64,000 bases of DNA, taken from Methanolobus chelungpuianus (GTDB lineage Archaea > Halobacteriota > Methanosarcinia > Methanosarcinales > Methanosarcinaceae). The notes below the pieces were generated by a model, which was not told where the DNA came from, ran no database searches, and saw only the letters and a program-made list of their open reading frames with translations. This document shows, piece after piece, positions 44,852 to 52,333 of the stretch; the first letter of the stretch is position 1; each line of letters starts with the position of its first letter. A program made the translations under genes and the position numbers. Where the stretch lies: contig NZ_JTEO01000002.1 in NCBI RefSeq assembly GCF_024500045.1, positions 62,001 through 126,000 on the forward strand. Reading direction: 5' to 3'.

Positions 44852-45658
44852 CTATGCGGCTACTTCCTCCTGGCTTCCACGTAGTCGCGGCCCGTGCCTT
44901 CCTTCATTTACAGGCGCCGGCAGAATCTCCCTGACGCTGTCCATTATTTCGGACATGCTCTCTCTGACCTCCTTGATGTCTTCCAGTGTCAGATTCTCAT
45001 TGCTGAGCTTTATCTTGATTTCCTCAAGCTGGCTCAGTACTGCCTCAATATCCTTGCTTGTGATGTTGTCTGGATCTGTCTCTTCGAGTGTGGTGTTCTC
45101 CAGCATCTCAATCATCCTGTCCACTGATTCTTCAGTCCTTGCTTTCTCAAAATCGAGCTGTTCTTCTTCAGTCTCAAACTCCGGCATTTCCATTCCCGGC
45201 CCCTTGCCTCTCATTTCTCGGCCTGGTCCCATTCTCATGGATTCTGACATGAACTCTTTGAGTTCATCAAGGGTTGTTGCGCTGTTGATCTGCCCAAGGA
45301 GTGTTTTCAGTTCGCTCAGTTGTTCTTCAAGGCTTTCTGCAGTAAGGTTCTCATCTCCAATCTCATCAATGTCCTCGATTATGGAAGTTGTTCTTTCGAT
45401 CCTCATCTCCGTGACATTGGTCATCATCTCTTTAAGATACTCGAATTCCTCTTCTTCAGTTTCAAACTCCGGCATTTCCAGAGATGGCTTTTCCATTGGC
45501 CCATGTCCTCTTCCCTTGAATTTACCTTCTGCAAGGTCAGATATATCTGTTGCATTCCGGGAGCTGCTTTCATTGGCAAGTGCGCCTGAAGGTATTATGC
45601 TTAATACCATCAGCAGCATTGAAAAACAGGCCAGTGCTTTCTTTCCGTGTAGCTTCAT
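44852..45658 (-). CDS. Exported acidic protein of unknown function (helical family, tandem units)
   Basis: A 268-residue protein with a signal peptide (KKALACFSMLLMVLSIIPSGALA). The mature part is a tandem duplication of about 80 residues; each unit begins EMPEFETEEE and continues with helices such as NLTAESLEEQLSELKTLLGQI and NLTLEDIKEVRESMSEIM. The start at 45658 has GGAGGAAAAAG upstream. The acidic, Met-rich helices and export resemble metal-binding or chaperone-like envelope proteins, but that is inference. Confidence 0.62.
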   Translation of the reverse strand: MKLHGKKALACFSMLLMVLSIIPSGALANESSSRNATDISDLAEGKFKGRGHGPMEKPSLEMPEFETEEEEFEYLKEMMTNVTEMRIERTTSIIEDIDEIGDENLTAESLEEQLSELKTLLGQINSATTLDELKEFMSESMRMGPGREMRGKGPGMEMPEFETEEEQLDFEKARTEESVDRMIEMLENTTLEETDPDNITSKDIEAVLSQLEEIKIKLSNENLTLEDIKEVRESMSEIMDSVREILPAPVNEGRHGPRLRGSQEEVAA

Positions 45659-46284
45659 TTCACTTTTTCCTCCTTTTTGATTATGTATCACATGTTACCA
45701 GTTTCCTTGGTCACTGGTACTGCATCCACCACACTTCCAGCCGAAAATATAAGCATACTTAGCAAAATAGCGCCAATTAACCTTTTAAGCGAAAATAAAA
45801 ACCTTTAATAAAGTTTTATTGGCAATATGAGAGATATTTATGCTTCAAATACATTTTAGGATCTCAATCTTGTGTTATCTTCCGGTCAGGCCTGGCAAAA
45901 AAAGCATACCTCCGCAGACACATTCAAAAAGTGGGAAAATAGACTTTTCATGCCCTGGTGCCATTCTGAATTTACTGTCTGCTGACCGGTAAACCTGTTA
46001 TTCCTCGTCTGAAATATGCCAGTACGGGTGAAACATGCTTTAAAGGAGGTCGCAGCTTTTAACAGGGAATTTATGCTATTCCGGCTGATTATAAAGGGTT
46101 GATAAGCTTTAAGAAGCTCCTGAACGCTGTATGCGTCAAGCAGAAGGTCAAGTGATTTCTGCTATACTATTAAGTATGTTTATATTCAAAAGAGACTTTC
46201 ATAAAACACAGAGAGACAGGGTCCCATAATGGGCCTTAATCAACACGACGTAAAAATGATCAACATGTCAGGATATGGTTTTGA
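45659..46284. other. Non-coding region between the helical exported proteins and the next gene
   Basis: About 620 bases. The left end holds the promoter and ribosome site of the gene at 44852. In the middle CCGGTCAG (45882-45889) and CTGACCGG (45982-45989) are inverted copies, with a further CAGACA/TGTCTG pair next to them, so a structured RNA or a paired site is possible. I see no larger gene. Near the right end an open frame of 19 codons (46229-46288) overlaps the next start. Confidence 0.5.
45882..45989. repeat. Nested inverted repeat, possible structured RNA
   Basis: CCGGTCAG (45882-45889) plus CAGACA (45915-45920) pair with the contiguous TGTCTGCTGACCGG (45976-45989), leaving a 25-base bulge on one side. 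A TATA-like GATATTTATGC lies about 45 bases to the left on the plus strand. No reading frame is present. Confidence 0.3.
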
Positions 46285-46288
46285 ATGA
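46229..46288 (+). CDS. Possible 19-codon leader peptide before the 46285 gene
   Basis: ATG at 46229 opens MGLNQHDVKMINMSGYGFE, and its TGA overlaps the ATG of the next gene (ATGA). Such an overlap suggests coupling, but the frame has no clear ribosome site, and chance is possible. Confidence 0.2.
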   Translation: MGLNQHDVKMINMSGYGFE

Positions 46289-47223
46289 AGCAGGCGCCGA
46301 TAATATTTGTGATCATCCTTATATCGATGATCCTAGTATCAGCCTTTATTGCTCCGGGCAGTGATATCGGCTCTCCGGAAAGACAGGGAGAAGGTCCTTT
46401 ATCCCAGTCTGAGCGTCCTCATGAGGACAGGCGTCTGGATGACTTTCCGGACAGGTTCTTTATCCGGAACACACAAGTGCCCTCAGACCGGGCAATGCTT
46501 GAGGATATTATCACCAAGTCCGAAAAGATGTCCCGGCGCCTTGCAGTGAGTATTGCCATGCTGGAACAGGAAGGTGAGGACGTAAAAGACATGGAGTCTC
46601 TCCTCGAGGAGTACATCCTGCTGGTAAGCGATGCCCGGATGTATCTGGAAATGTCTGACATGTCAGCAGGTGCAGATTCAGTTAACAGCTCCCAGAATAA
46701 CTCCCTGAACGGTTCCCTCACGTGCCAGAGCGAGGAGGAATGCCTGGAAAGATCAAGGGAGAGCATCACTCAGGCCAACTTACGTCTTAAGAGCATATTT
46801 GGCAGATTAAGCCCGTATCTTGCTTCTCACGCGGTGATCCCGGAGAATGGCACCCTGCATGCACAGGGTAACGGCACTATAGTCCTTTTTGGTGATCTTG
46901 ATGTCCGTCTGTATGTTTCCCATGGTAACATTTCTTATACCGATTTCAACAGCGATCTGACCGTCCGGCTGGAAAACGATCCCACGCCTTCCATATCAAG
47001 CACAGAGACGGGACAGGAAATAGTATCCTATAAAAATATGACCGGTGGTGTTTCTTTATCCGGCTCGGGTTTCATGGTTGAGGTCGCAGGAGAGGACATC
47101 TCCCTGATTGCAACGGGAAAAGGCAGGTCAGAACTCTTCGGTAATGGTATCTATTACTTCGAAGAAGGAAACGTCGCCGGAAAAAAACAAATATGGAAAC
47201 CGCCTCTTTTTGAGAATGATTGA
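46285..47223 (+). CDS. Exported protein with helical unit and beta domain, function unknown
   Basis: A 312-residue protein with a signal peptide or anchor (APIIFVIILISMILVSAFI). Residues about 65-125 repeat the helical pattern of the neighbouring exported proteins (DRAMLEDIITKSEKMSRRLAV, then MESLLEEYILLVSDARMYLEM). The C-terminal 130 residues form a Gly-rich beta pattern: HAQGNGTIVLFGDLDVRLYV, GSGFMVEVAGEDISLIATGKG, ELFGNGIYYFEEG. Many N-glycosylation sequons are present. It is followed 27 bases later by a membrane regulator, so the pair probably works together. Confidence 0.62.
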   Translation: MKQAPIIFVIILISMILVSAFIAPGSDIGSPERQGEGPLSQSERPHEDRRLDDFPDRFFIRNTQVPSDRAMLEDIITKSEKMSRRLAVSIAMLEQEGEDVKDMESLLEEYILLVSDARMYLEMSDMSAGADSVNSSQNNSLNGSLTCQSEEECLERSRESITQANLRLKSIFGRLSPYLASHAVIPENGTLHAQGNGTIVLFGDLDVRLYVSHGNISYTDFNSDLTVRLENDPTPSISSTETGQEIVSYKNMTGGVSLSGSGFMVEVAGEDISLIATGKGRSELFGNGIYYFEEGNVAGKKQIWKPPLFEND

Positions 47224-47250
47224 TATAGCAAAAAGCAATTATTGATTTGA

Positions 47251-48264
47251 ATGAAATTTATATTTTACATAAGTTGCGTCGCTGTATTGCTTTCCCTGTC
47301 AGGCATCTGCATGGCCTCGGGGATAGCGACAGTGCACGGCGTTGCTTATGAATGGAGTACCTTTGAACCACTTGACAATGCGGTAATAGAGGTGAACACA
47401 ACCCCCGTACAGTCTCTAGTGGCAAAATCAGGAGTATACTCCTTTGACCTCTCCAACGGTACGTATCTGGTAAAGGCCACCTATTACCAGAACGGCACTC
47501 TGACCCATTACGGGGAGGAGGTCATCACAGTTTCCGGAGAAGGTAACTATGTTGTGGACCTGCTTCTTCTCCCGTCCTATACTGCCAGCCAGCTCGATTC
47601 TACTGAAAGCAGCCCTGAGAGAACGGGCCTGAACGTAAGCGGCTCATCTGCAGGGGATAACAGCGCAATACTGATAGGCGTCTCACTGACCCTTGTTTTA
47701 GTCCTGCTCATCCTATTTTACCAGGTACGCTATAAGAGAGAGGCATCTTCAGCCGTCTCCCCACGGAGAACAGAACATTCCGCTGATGATCCCGTTGTAC
47801 CTGTATCGCCTGCACTTGAGCCTGCCATATCCGGAAGTTCTTCTTTCTCCCCTGAGCCTTCCGGTGAAAAGTTCCCGGGGCCTACTCGTGAAGTGCCTTC
47901 AGGGATTACTTTCACTGAGCCCGAAGAGAGTCCCGGGCTACATAAATATCATGAGCACCCCACGGAAGAGGATGTTGCGGATGACAATTATCCTGAAACC
48001 GGTGTCATCTCAGGGACAACGGTCCAGGAGGCAGAGAAGCATACGGAAAGAGTTTCAGGACCAGTGCCAGCAGATCTGCAGGAGATACTGGATATCCTTG
48101 TGTCCCAGGGAGGCAGGATGACCCAGAAAGACATGCGTAAACGCCTCAGGTACTCCGAAGGCAAGGTAAGCCTGATGCTTCTTGATCTGGAAAAAAGAGG
48201 AAAGATCCAGAAATTCAAAAAGGGCAGAGGGAACATCATTTTCCTGGTTGGGGAGGAAAAATGA
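47251..48264 (+). CDS. Membrane-anchored winged-helix regulator with an outside sensor domain
   Basis: A 337-residue protein. A signal peptide (FIFYISCVAVLLSLSGICMA) is followed by a carboxypeptidase-regulatory-like beta domain (VHGVAYEWSTFEPLDNAVIE, SGVYSFDLSNGTYLVKATY), one membrane helix (AILIGVSLTLVLVLLILFYQV near residue 145), a long Ser/Pro/Glu-rich linker, and a C-terminal winged helix: LQEILDILVSQGGRMTQKDM and SEGKVSLMLLDLEKRGKIQKF. So it senses outside and would bind DNA inside as a one-component system. The targets are probably nearby envelope genes, but that is inferred. Confidence 0.75.
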   Translation: MKFIFYISCVAVLLSLSGICMASGIATVHGVAYEWSTFEPLDNAVIEVNTTPVQSLVAKSGVYSFDLSNGTYLVKATYYQNGTLTHYGEEVITVSGEGNYVVDLLLLPSYTASQLDSTESSPERTGLNVSGSSAGDNSAILIGVSLTLVLVLLILFYQVRYKREASSAVSPRRTEHSADDPVVPVSPALEPAISGSSSFSPEPSGEKFPGPTREVPSGITFTEPEESPGLHKYHEHPTEEDVADDNYPETGVISGTTVQEAEKHTERVSGPVPADLQEILDILVSQGGRMTQKDMRKRLRYSEGKVSLMLLDLEKRGKIQKFKKGRGNIIFLVGEEK

Positions 48265-48578
48265 GTTTTTCTTCGTATCTGTAAACCTGTTCTCCTGAAC
48301 TCTGTCACGTGAGGCCATGATCATTCTCACACTCCTGCACTTTTCCTGGCTTTTATTCATTAGCTTGTCGGCAGATCATTTTTCTTATATATGGAAAACG
48401 CCTTACCGGTCTTTTTCTGTATGTCAAACCTTTATAGACTCTCTAATATGACCTATTTCCTGGTCTAAAGCATTGGTTATACATAAGTAGCTCTATAAAG
48501 TTTTATTTATGCATAATACTTCCTTTTTAGCCTTTGTTTGTAAGTATGCTTTTATTTAAACTTGCTAATTCAGGGTTT
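48265..48578. other. Intergenic region upstream of the structured leader
   Basis: No gene or strong repeat is seen between 48265 and about 48480. A TATA-like element CTATAAAG (about 48491) should start transcription near 48515-48520, some 60 bases before the first leader hairpin. Confidence 0.5.
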
Positions 48579-48752
48579 GTCAGCAAGACAATTGCTGACG
48601 AGTATCGCCCACCCCCGCGAAGTGGCACCCACGGATGCCAGTAACATGGCCCGTAGTGCCACTGAGCACACAAAGTACCACCATGTATAACCACTCTCTC
48701 GTACAGGAGGCATCTTTCAGATAAGGATGCCTCTTGCGAGTTTAGGAGGCAT
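48579..48752 (+). promoter_or_regulatory. Structured 5' leader with three hairpins and a switchable Shine-Dalgarno
   Basis: Hairpin 1: GTCAGCAA (48579-48586) with TTGCTGAC (48592-48599), 8 perfect pairs. Hairpin 2: 48621-48663, AGTGGCAC with GTGCCACT outside, then ACGG with CCGT and GCCA with TGGC inside, 16 pairs and a 6-base loop. Hairpin 3: GAGGCATC (48707-48714) with GATGCCTC (48726-48733), extended outward by three pairs (one G:U). The 3' arm of hairpin 3 can equally pair with GAGGCAT (48746-48752), which holds the ribosome site of the 48756 gene. The two stems exclude each other. This has the shape of a riboswitch or other cis-acting translation switch; the ligand is unknown. Confidence 0.6.
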
Positions 48753-48755
48753 TGC

Positions 48756-48923
48756 ATGAAAGATACATTCAAGCAATTAATTGAACTTCGCACTCAGGCG
48801 ATGATCAACGAGAACAACATCTACGTTGCATCGGCCCTCATCAGAAAACTGACGCCTGAGCAAATGGATCGCCTGTTGAAAATATCTCCCCCGGGAGAAA
48901 GAGGCCAAGACTTTCACTGGTAA
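48756..48923 (+). CDS. 55-residue protein of unknown function
   Basis: Small gene with a strong site (AGGAGG 6 bases before the ATG). The product begins MKDTFKQLIELRTQAMINEN and continues through VASALIRKLTPEQMDRLLKI to GERGQDFHW, a soluble helical protein by appearance. It is the first gene after the structured leader and 20 bases before an ABC transporter ATPase. A 10-codon frame (48727-48759, MPLASLGGIA) ends across its start codon (ATGA). The family is not recognised. Because the leader controls this gene, it may be a regulator or accessory factor of the exporter. Confidence 0.65.
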   Translation: MKDTFKQLIELRTQAMINENNIYVASALIRKLTPEQMDRLLKISPPGERGQDFHW

Positions 48924-48943: not shown

Positions 48944-49711
48944 ATGAAGGATAGCATGGAGAATAATCTCAGTATATCGTCAGGTTCCGGGCCTATTCAG
49001 GCAAACGACAGTGAACCCTTGCTGAACCTGCGCAATGTCTGGAAAACGTACCAGATGGGTGAGGTCACCTTTGATGCCCTCAAGGACGTGAATCTCACTA
49101 TAGACAAAGGTGAGTTCGTTGTCATTCTCGGGCCAAGCGGCAGCGGAAAAAGTACGATGATGAACCTTATAGGCTGTCTCGATCTTCCCAGCAGGGGTAT
49201 AGTGGAGCTGAACAGCAGGGATATCTCCACATTGGGGGAATCCGAACTTGCACAGATAAGGGGACAGATGATAGGTTTCATTTTCCAGCAGTTCAACCTC
49301 ATTCCCACACTCAACACGATAGAGAATGTAATGCTCCCGCTTGAGTTCCAGGAGGCAGATCCCGCATTTGCCAGAAAGAGGGCGGAGGAGCTGCTGGCAG
49401 TTGTAGGACTTTCCGAGAAGAAGAATAACCTTCCTTCACAGCTGTCAGGCGGACAGAGGCAGAGGGTCGCAATAGCAAGATCGCTTGCAGTAAATCCCAA
49501 AGTGATTCTTGCGGATGAGCCGACAGGCAACCTTGACAGTAAGACCGGCAGTTATATCCTCGAATTCCTGAGCGACCTGCATAAGAGGGAAGGAACTACG
49601 ATCATAATCGTCACCCATGACCTGAAGCCTGTGCAATACGCTGACAGGGTGGTTCATATCAAAGACGGCATGGTCGAAAAAGTAGAGACTATCCACAGAG
49701 AAGCAATGTGA
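48944..49711 (+). CDS. ABC transporter ATP-binding protein, MacB/LolD type
   Basis: A 255-residue ATPase. Walker A GPSGSGKSTMMNLIG near residue 65, Q-loop FIFQQFNLIPTLNTIENVMLP, signature LSGGQRQRVAIARSL, Walker B ILADEPTGNLDSKTG, and the H-loop IIVTHDLKP. This type drives mechanical transmission or export by FtsX-like permeases without moving substrate through the membrane. AGGAG lies 6 bases before the ATG. The permease is encoded two genes later. Confidence 0.94.
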   Translation: MKDSMENNLSISSGSGPIQANDSEPLLNLRNVWKTYQMGEVTFDALKDVNLTIDKGEFVVILGPSGSGKSTMMNLIGCLDLPSRGIVELNSRDISTLGESELAQIRGQMIGFIFQQFNLIPTLNTIENVMLPLEFQEADPAFARKRAEELLAVVGLSEKKNNLPSQLSGGQRQRVAIARSLAVNPKVILADEPTGNLDSKTGSYILEFLSDLHKREGTTIIIVTHDLKPVQYADRVVHIKDGMVEKVETIHREAM

Positions 49712-49733
49712 TTACGTAAACAATGTGATTGAA

Positions 49734-51098
49734 ATGAGAAAACTTTTGATATTCGTATTATTCCTGATCTTATCAGCTACTTCATCATCCGCAGCCATAT
49801 CCAACAGCGCGAGTGGAGTAGATATAAATGTTATGAGCCAGAGCCCGAGTCCTGCAAGACCGGGTGAGGTTGTTGAACTTACACTGACCGTGCAGAACGT
49901 GGGAAATAAGGACCTTTCCAACGTGGTCATTACGGTAGATCCTGAATATCCTTTCTCTCAGGCTTCAGGAGAGTCGCTTTCAAAGACCATCTCCTACATG
50001 AAGGCCCGCCAGAGCGAGGATGACGCCACCACGGTCAAGTTCAAGCTCAAGGTAGATGCCGATGCTGCAAAGAAGACCTATGACCTCAATATCTATGTCA
50101 AGGACAGCAGTAGTGATGCATCTGTGAAAACTACGGTGGCTGTGGATGTACAGGGCAAGGAATATGCACAGATCGTCACGATCAGCAAATCCAGCATTGA
50201 CCTTGCCACTGTGGAACCCCTGGAGTTCATCATAACCAATACCGGTACCTCTCCTCTCAAGAACATGGCAGTGTCCTGGGAAGACTCAACAGGCACCATC
50301 CTCCCGGTTTACTCTGACAATACAAAATACATAACTTATCTTGGTGTAGGCGAGTCAGTGACAGTTGCTTATTCTGTCATGGCTAACGTGAACGCTGACC
50401 CTGGACTGTACCAGCTTGATATCACGCTCAACTTCCAGGATTATGACTCCAATGAGAGCACCATCAAGACAAAGGCCGGTCTCTTTGTGGGAGGCGGTAC
50501 GGACTTCGACGTGACTTATTCCGAGAGCAGTGCAGGAGAGGTCTCATTGTCACTGGCGAACGTGGGCAACAACCAGGCATATTCTGTCAAGGTCTCAATA
50601 CCTGAACAGGAGAACTTCAGGGCAACGGGCAGCACTTCCACCATCGTTGGGAACCTTGAGAAAGGGGACTACACTATCACATCCTTCTCTGTAACTTCTG
50701 CCAGTATGATGTCGTCAGGCTCATCCGGTGAAAGGCCGGGACAGGCACAGGCAAGTTCCTCCAACACTACCCAATCCCAATCTTCCGGTTCAAGGAATAA
50801 CCTGCTTGTCCTGATAGAGTACACTGATTCCACGGGACAGAGATTGTCTGTGGAAAAAAGTGTTCCCATTGAGTTATCCTCCACAGGGACAACAGCTGCA
50901 GGCATGGGTCCTGGCGGAAGGTCCCAGCAGTCATCGACCGGTACTTACCTGAAGTACGGCCTGGCAGCGATAGTTCTTGCAGGGATGTTTCTCTATTACA
51001 GGAAGAGGAAAGCAGGTCAGTCCAATGAGGATATTCGTGGTGAAATATCAAACCGCATGAGGGGACTGAAGAGGAAGATGTCGAAGGAAGGGCAATGA
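49734..51098 (+). CDS. Exported CARDB/S-layer-like partner protein of the MacB exporter
   Basis: A 454-residue protein with a signal peptide (RKLLIFVLFLILSATSSSAA), then several CARDB-like beta domains: PARPGEVVELTLTVQNVGNK, EPLEFIITNTGTSPLKNM, EVSLSLANVGNNQAYSVKVS. A Ser/Gly/Gln-rich linker leads to a C-terminal membrane helix (YGLAAIVLAGMFLYYRKRK) with the tail inside. It overlaps the permease by 4 bases. Its position suggests an envelope scaffold or adaptor for the exporter, in the place of bacterial MacA. That is inference. Confidence 0.75.
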   Translation: MRKLLIFVLFLILSATSSSAAISNSASGVDINVMSQSPSPARPGEVVELTLTVQNVGNKDLSNVVITVDPEYPFSQASGESLSKTISYMKARQSEDDATTVKFKLKVDADAAKKTYDLNIYVKDSSSDASVKTTVAVDVQGKEYAQIVTISKSSIDLATVEPLEFIITNTGTSPLKNMAVSWEDSTGTILPVYSDNTKYITYLGVGESVTVAYSVMANVNADPGLYQLDITLNFQDYDSNESTIKTKAGLFVGGGTDFDVTYSESSAGEVSLSLANVGNNQAYSVKVSIPEQENFRATGSTSTIVGNLEKGDYTITSFSVTSASMMSSGSSGERPGQAQASSSNTTQSQSSGSRNNLLVLIEYTDSTGQRLSVEKSVPIELSSTGTTAAGMGPGGRSQQSSTGTYLKYGLAAIVLAGMFLYYRKRKAGQSNEDIRGEISNRMRGLKRKMSKEGQ

Positions 51099-52333
51099 GA
51101 CGAAGGACATATCTTAAGCTTGCAACCAACATCCTGCTGCACAGCAGGATCAGGAGCTGGCTCACTATAATCGGTATCGTCATTGGTGTGGGTGCAGTGG
51201 TCACCATCATGTCCATCAGCGACAGCATGTCGGCAGATATGGAAAGCCGCCTTGCTGACATGGATCTTACCACAATCACCGTTACTCCGGGCAATACCAG
51301 GGCATTCTCGGCCATGGGACCGGGAGGTGGTGGAGGCGGTGGTCTCTCGTCTTCCTCGGAGGACGCGGAACTTACAGACAAGGATCTCCGGGCTATCAAA
51401 CTGGTGGATAACATCGACTCTATGTACGGCAAGATCTCCGGAAGGGAATCCGTGTACTACATGGGTGAATCCGCAGAACTTTCCATAACAGGTGTCGATT
51501 CCCAGGTATGGCAGTACACGGTCACCTATGATCTTGAATCGGGAAGGCTGCTGGAGCCTGCGGACAATTACGTTGCTGTCATCGGCTACAGGATAGCCAA
51601 TGAGATGTACGATACCCAGATAGGTCTCAACAGGGTCATAACCATCAACGGAAAATCCGTGAGGGTCGTAGGGATACTTGCATCCGGTGAGGACGACAAT
51701 GCAGTGATAATGCCTATAGATGCTGCAGTCGAGCTGATAGAAGATGCAGAGCCTGATGTTTATGATTCCATTGTCATCAAGGTCAATGACGTAGAAAATG
51801 TCGAGACAGTGGTCACAGATGTAGAGGAGAAACTCATGATATCAAGGCATGTCATGAATGAGAAAGACAGGGACTTCAGTGTAAGCGATTCGTTGTCAAT
51901 GGCTGAGTCTGCCAGTGAGATGATGTCGTCAATGAGCCTTTTCCTGGGGGCCATAGCAGGGGTCTCCCTTGTAGTGGGATCAGTAGGTATTGCAAACACG
52001 ATGTTTACCTCGGTAATGGAGAAGACGCGGGAAATAGGCACCATGAAAGCCATCGGGGCCAGGAACAGGGACATAATGATGATATTCCTTGTCAACTCGG
52101 CACTTGTAGGATTTGTCGGAGGGGTGCTCGGTATCGTACTGAGCCTCGGGCTGACGTCAATGCTGCCGTCGCTGGGACTGACAATGATGAGATCATCCAT
52201 GGGTTCAACTCTCTCGCCTGAGCTGATGCTGCTGGGTATTTTCATCGCTGTCCTCATAGGCATAATCTCAGGCGTGGTGCCTGCCTACAATGCCTCGAAG
52301 ATGAGGCCGGTGGATGCGTTGAGGTATGAATGA
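51095..52333 (+). CDS. ABC transporter permease, MacB/FtsX type
   Basis: A 412-residue permease with the MacB layout: N-terminal helix RSWLTIIGIVIGVGAVVTIMSI near residue 28, a large outside domain (about 55-285) with a Gly-rich loop (GPGGGGGGG, a likely flexible turn), and three C-terminal helices (FLGAIAGVSLVVGSVGIANTMFTSVMEKTREIGTMKAIGA, then VNSALVGFVGGVLGIVLSLG and LLGIFIAVLIGIISGVVPAYNASKMRPVDALRYE). It is co-transcribed with the ATPase and the exported partner. Confidence 0.93.
   Translation: MRRRTYLKLATNILLHSRIRSWLTIIGIVIGVGAVVTIMSISDSMSADMESRLADMDLTTITVTPGNTRAFSAMGPGGGGGGGLSSSSEDAELTDKDLRAIKLVDNIDSMYGKISGRESVYYMGESAELSITGVDSQVWQYTVTYDLESGRLLEPADNYVAVIGYRIANEMYDTQIGLNRVITINGKSVRVVGILASGEDDNAVIMPIDAAVELIEDAEPDVYDSIVIKVNDVENVETVVTDVEEKLMISRHVMNEKDRDFSVSDSLSMAESASEMMSSMSLFLGAIAGVSLVVGSVGIANTMFTSVMEKTREIGTMKAIGARNRDIMMIFLVNSALVGFVGGVLGIVLSLGLTSMLPSLGLTMMRSSMGSTLSPELMLLGIFIAVLIGIISGVVPAYNASKMRPVDALRYE

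Follow-up and report, generated by a model that had tools for sequence, protein, structure and literature searches.

Structured leaders that regulate gene expression are common in bacteria and, to our knowledge, few have been described in archaea. The nearest studied instance of leader-targeted control in the Methanosarcinaceae is that of sRNA162 and the leader of its target MM2442 in Methanosarcina mazei (PMC3510493). It resembles the locus considered here in its family and in working through an extended 5′ leader that contains small ORFs, but sRNA162 is set apart by its description as a separate antisense and trans-acting RNA, and thus a different kind of RNA from the Methanolobus leader. 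Long, structure-bearing leaders are also documented within the genus: in Methanolobus psychrophilus R15, 24% of 5′ untranslated regions are longer than 150 nt, and the ribosome site of an Hsp20 leader has been predicted to be buried (PMC5378194). The worked cases in that study concern temperature-dependent start choice rather than an exporter leader, and a term search of its main text found neither ABC transporters nor small proteins mentioned. A third point of comparison is the group of orphan riboswitch candidates and structured leader motifs, which share with our locus covarying hairpins, conserved unpaired bases between promoter and Shine–Dalgarno (SD) sequence, and recurrence before paralogous operons. 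Unlike those candidates, the Methanolobus leader is archaeal, is without an Rfam match or known ligand, and has unpaired stretches that are nearly free of G.

The locus lies in a 64,000-nt stretch of Methanolobus chelungpuianus (GCF_024500045.1, NZ_JTEO01000002.1, positions 62,001–126,000, forward strand), hereafter the window, in whose coordinates all positions are given unless another genome is named. We read the segment as a ~175-nt structured 5′ leader RNA that acts in cis, has three hairpins and G-poor single-stranded joints, and would be read in trans and serve an exporter operon within a local regulon of three promoters. To this explanation as a whole, we assign a probability of about 0.52.

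Results

The leader is encoded on the forward strand. The first hairpin, H1 (48579–48599), sits where the transcript's 5′ end is predicted, with arms GTCAGCAA and TTGCTGAC at 48579–48586 and 48592–48599. In alignments, it is followed by the unpaired H1–H2 spacer CGCCCACCCCCGCG (48605–48618), the counterpart of ACCACCC in other leaders, and by H2 (48621–48663), whose arms AGTGGCAC and GTGCCACT (48621–48628 and 48656–48663) contribute a GTGGCAC/GTGCCAC stem. A conserved linker, GTACCACCAT here (48675–48684) and GTACCAACAACC in other leaders, leads to H3, which the predicted fold and covariation place at 48694–48740 together with a CTCG/CGAG closing base. The H3 arms CAGGAGGCATC and GATGCCTCTTG occupy 48704–48714 and 48726–48736 (14-nt arms in a repeat scan) and include GAGGCATC at 48707–48714 and GATGCCTC at 48726–48733. 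The SD AGGAGG (48744–48749) and the start codon ATG (48756–48758) complete the arrangement, with a second GAGGCAT at 48746–48752 falling within the SD region. The sequence and the repeat scan, which recovers the three hairpins and the ATGCCTC/GAGGCAT alternative, place these hairpins and pairings exactly where an earlier note on this DNA had drawn them.

The segment 48560–48790 has a minimum free energy of −85.5 kcal/mol, versus −56.0 ± 4.7 kcal/mol in 200 dinucleotide shuffles (z = −6.25). With the compensatory changes described below, this bears out the structured leader RNA proposed in that note as real and beyond chance. The predicted default fold already leaves the SD partly paired, with CTCT (48694–48697), just 5′ of H3, opposite its GGAG. 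The SD core is unpaired with a probability of 0.24 in the window; across leaders the mean is 0.30, versus 0.39 for a background of other genes (p = 0.08), and occlusion of the SD by the pyrimidine tract 5′ of H3, drawn in many folds, is not clearly above background. A search of the window against Rfam at the gathering score returned two tRNAs only, and relaxing the threshold to E = 1 gave no match in 48560–48780 or in four related loci. The fold had been suspected to lie outside the recognised riboswitch classes, and indeed no known riboswitch or Rfam family matches it; a limited literature search found no publication describing this leader RNA. On the best reading, it belongs to a new family of structured 5′ leaders that act in cis.

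Upstream of H1 is the promoter element AAGTATGCTTTTATTTAAA (48542–48560, forward strand), a TATA-like core with a conserved upstream AAGTATG, which recurs in identical or nearly identical form 5′ of every leader found. Given the usual archaeal TATA-to-start spacing, transcription would begin near 48580, well upstream of 48740. The motif AAGTATGCTTNTATTTAA, allowing up to two mismatches, occurs three times in the genome, always inside the window, at 45743–45760 (reverse strand), 46172–46189 (forward) and 48542–48559 (forward); shuffles of the window predict 0.17 occurrences at up to three mismatches. Because all three copies fall within 3 kb, they suggest a private regulon of the adjoining DUF7343 membrane regulator. 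The second unit of this putative regulon (46172–48264, forward), which lies 5′ of the leader, comprises a lipoprotein-like gene (46285–47223) and the gene of a DUF7343 winged-helix membrane protein (47251–48264), the likely regulator. The third (44852–45760, reverse) encodes a secreted Met/acid-rich protein of 279 residues (44852–45691), and this gene and its promoter are also present in relatives. There, the regulator gene pair is duplicated in tandem along with leader/small-protein modules.

Downstream of the leader, and on the same strand, are genes for a 55-residue small protein (48756–48923), an ABC ATPase of the LolD/MacB type (48944–49711; Pfam ABC_tran, 4.5e-33; best NCBIfam match LolD, with a score below that family's cut-off), an exported CARDB/NEW3-like, S-layer-like protein (49725–51098; Pfam and NCBIfam), a MacB/FtsX-type permease (51095–52333; Pfam MacB_PCD, 3.6e-32, and FtsX, 3.2e-22) and a transglutaminase-like protein. 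The small protein matches no Pfam or NCBIfam family. Its homologues, which follow most leaders, share the recurring core L..KL.PEQM.RL..ISP, and dN/dS values of 0.10–0.20 in the window clade, where defined, indicate that it is under purifying selection. A separate observation concerns the ABC ATPase of L120, L122, L126 and L128, which carries an N-terminal extension (such as MTLTEIIENFKTKLNPS...). Kinship between the small protein and the Methanosarcina ATPase N-terminus is unsupported, with an hhalign probability of 0.5%.

Homologous leaders are present in 19 of 27 Methanolobus genomes, in up to three copies each. In a DNA search, four genomes yielded full-length relatives at 78–93% identity and most of the others yielded fragments, often 2.5–3 kb apart; the relatives are laid out as promoter AAGTATGCTTTTATTTAAA, H1, ACCACCC, H2, linker GTACCAACAACC, H3, SD and small ORF. 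A covariance model built from 13 leaders, none of them from the window, matches 15 of the genus's 27 genomes; it lists at most three copies for any one genome, and some of these are antisense echoes. The window leader belongs to a diverged subtype found in five species (G000, G017, G008, G005 and G011), which we call the window clade, and a model trained without this clade finds it weakly, at 48608–48749 (E = 0.0028, 19 bits), a score no higher than the 18–27 bits of antisense echoes of other hairpins. Because such echoes reach similar bits, homology is better argued from the promoter, gene order and small protein that the leaders have in common. In G005, probably M. psychrophilus R15, the orthologous leader is at C1:1348363–1348745 on the minus strand. 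The permease occurs in 20 Methanolobus genomes, of which 19 have the leader; the twentieth, G013, offers only a truncated permease match at a contig edge.

Beyond the genus, two copies were found in G081, from another genus of the family (probably Methanosarcina). Under stricter filters, the model matched no further genome among the 186 searched in the order, only Methanolobus and G081, and a search for the conserved H2-loop pattern across 84,980 species found matches in Methanolobus only. All the homologous leaders have the promoter and the three hairpins, and what follows them is mostly a 55–80-residue protein, a MacB-type exporter or both. In G015, the leader lies 37 nt 5′ of the ATPase with no intervening small protein, one leader in G020 has no clear ORF after it, and those of G081 precede unrelated genes. 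The leader thus does not require the small protein, and the cases of G015 and G081 identify the RNA as the conserved unit. The G081 copies (L075, 7840–7972 and 10478–10610, reverse strand) sit beside genes for a TAT-signal flavoprotein and a ferredoxin and are followed by an 11-codon frame, MKIMGCTYYSK, in place of the small protein.

Compensatory changes among the homologous leaders, for which the earlier note had proposed a covariance search, are present in H1, H2 and H3; in the alignments they support all three hairpins, H3 most strongly. Across 29 leaders, 93.7% of H3 cells are paired, with 53 double changes versus 20 in shuffles and a covariation of 0.399 versus 0.254, a level reached by none of 500 shuffles; when the partner is slid as a control, pairing falls to 35–54%. 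For H2, 98% of cells are paired over 33 leaders (8 double changes versus 1.3 in shuffles). The corresponding figure for H1 is 93.5% over 25 main-clade leaders (17 versus 4.7), and H1 is predicted as a hairpin in 33 of 33.

Main-clade leaders are 84–96% identical in pairwise comparison, and the 110 nt 5′ of their promoters 55–75%, with one pair at 93%; in the window clade, the ranges are 67–91% and 52–88%, respectively. The unpaired main-clade sequences ACCACCC, CCAACCACAUCCAGCC, GUACCAACAACC and CCUAUCC hardly vary and contain little G. Paralogous leaders within one genome have the loops CCAACCACAUCCAGCC, GUACCAACAACC and CCUAUCC in common while their stem sequences differ, a pattern that a single common reader would predict. 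In the window clade, the fold and the linker are retained and the loop sequences of H2 and H3 are not; since loops that are invariant elsewhere have been lost there, its trans factor would have to differ.

Conserved unpaired bases together with covarying stems are also what a small-molecule or ion riboswitch would display, with the unpaired stretches, H2 and H3 forming a pocket and so governing how accessible the SD is. The position of the leader directly 5′ of the SD and its modular use before other genes in G081 fit such a device, but, in contrast to compact aptamers, its invariant stretches are rich in C and A with hardly any G, the window clade does not retain its loops, neither a pseudoknot nor a long-range pairing was found, and there is no metabolic gene. 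We consider a riboswitch unlikely.

If instead the hairpins merely shield the 5′ end or keep the SD insulated, without regulation, H1 is well placed at the predicted 5′ end, and stems would be kept while their sequence varies, as they are. The same exporter operon in other genera (Methanococcoides, Methanosarcina and others) has the same kind of promoter and different strong folds at the same site, which such a passive role would also accommodate. Near-invariant unpaired sequence across paralogues would be left unexplained, however, and we regard protection or insulation alone as distinctly unlikely. Across genera, the structured state of the operon-head position is conserved and the fold is not. 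Among the folds seen elsewhere are a 17-bp long-range stem, CTCCCTCTCAAGGTGGC...GCCACCTTGAGAGGGAG in L111, with near-copies in the other Methanococcoides loci of the set L111–L114, 5′ of the ABC ATPase, and a recurrent hairpin, GAGGCACC...GGTGCCTC, ~250–420 nt 5′ of the ATPase in the Methanosarcina-like L122, L126 and L128. The latter resembles the window's H3 and lies in apparent long leaders.

The exposed loops, almost devoid of G, might alternatively belong to a trans-acting small RNA processed from the leader, whose C-rich loops bind the rRNA tail or G-rich ribosome sites on other mRNAs. The main-clade H2 loop AUCCAGCC (for example, in L045 and L047) is complementary to the 16S tail GGCUGGAU beside the anti-SD, a tail sequence that we confirmed, and the leaders of G081 and G015 that lack the small protein would suit this reading. 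The window clade, however, does not have AUCCAGCC, which is moreover altered in L009, L015, L038, L055 and G081, and no terminator-like end is seen after H3. We regard a processed small RNA as very unlikely.

A translational switch had also been proposed for this locus, in which the 3′ arm of H3 would pair by turns with GAGGCATC and with the GAGGCAT that contains the SD, and so expose or mask the ribosome site. As in bistable SD-masking riboswitches, the window allows an alternative arm:SD pairing to be drawn; unlike in those systems, it is not conserved across relatives and lacks compensatory support, and the claim of mutually exclusive hairpins is not supported. The arm:SD duplex is strong in the window clade (−15.8, −15.8, −16.9, −10.8 and −12.7 kcal/mol in the five leaders, a range of −10.8 to −16.9 with z of −2.5 to −4.5) and moderate in L008, L010, L039 and L053 (−10.4 kcal/mol), but it is near chance in 19 of the 28 leaders scored. 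No double changes preserve the pairing, and L004 and L005 break its centre with an A:C mismatch. The cost of forcing it is 5.4 kcal/mol for the window and 6.0, 3.1, 6.2 and 4.3 kcal/mol for the rest of the clade. In the window, the alternative state is predicted to lie just 5.4 kcal/mol above the optimum because the released ATCTTTCA (48712–48719) can pair with TGAAAGAT (48757–48764) at the start codon.

With H3 forbidden as a control, the penalty in the window is 8.2 kcal/mol, matched by 7 of 100 shuffled downstream sequences; over the window clade, 7, 18, 10, 66 and 72 of 100 downstream shuffles equal the real sequences, and in seven main-clade leaders, 78–99 of 100 are stronger competitors of H3 than the real sequence is. 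H3 moreover lies upstream and would fold first. Given these controls, the lack of any double change preserving the alternative and the break in L004 and L005, the arm:SD pairing is best seen as a by-product of the resemblance, in the window clade, between the H3 arm and the anti-SD, and a switch of this kind is highly improbable. The 10-codon frame that the earlier note described across the start codon is present (ATG at 48727, TGA at 48757–48759) but not conserved, being broken in three of four close relatives (stop lost in L003, ATG lost in L004 and L005), and we rejected control by a leader peptide encoded at 48727–48759.

Discussion

The promoter, hairpins, covariation, conservation and gene context described above are read from sequence, and from this anatomy we infer a mechanism that includes a start site, a trans factor and an effect on translation or stability. 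In the preferred reading of a structured 5′ leader read in trans, transcription would start just 5′ of H1, at a promoter that two neighbouring units have in common with the leader and that is probably controlled by the adjoining membrane-bound DUF7343 winged-helix regulator. The hairpins would then expose fixed single strands for a trans factor to bind, a protein being the likeliest candidate, and this binding would set the translation or stability of the exporter operon, atop local transcriptional control. H3 would act as a constitutive hairpin beside the SD rather than as the arm of a switch.

A broader proposal, which we advance only tentatively, is that this RNA represents a previously undescribed, archaea-specific class of leader in the Methanosarcinaceae. 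Its three hairpins would display nearly G-free strands to a dedicated reader, whether protein or ligand, and so add a second, post-transcriptional layer over a local regulon governed by a membrane regulator and serving an envelope exporter.

The leader combines clear covariation over 33 distinct copies with paralogues in the same genome that can be compared with one another, and it is accompanied by a three-promoter regulon with a candidate membrane regulator. One relative is found in a probable Methanosarcina, a genetically tractable genus. Whether archaea use dedicated classes of leader RNA with readers of their own thereby becomes a testable question.
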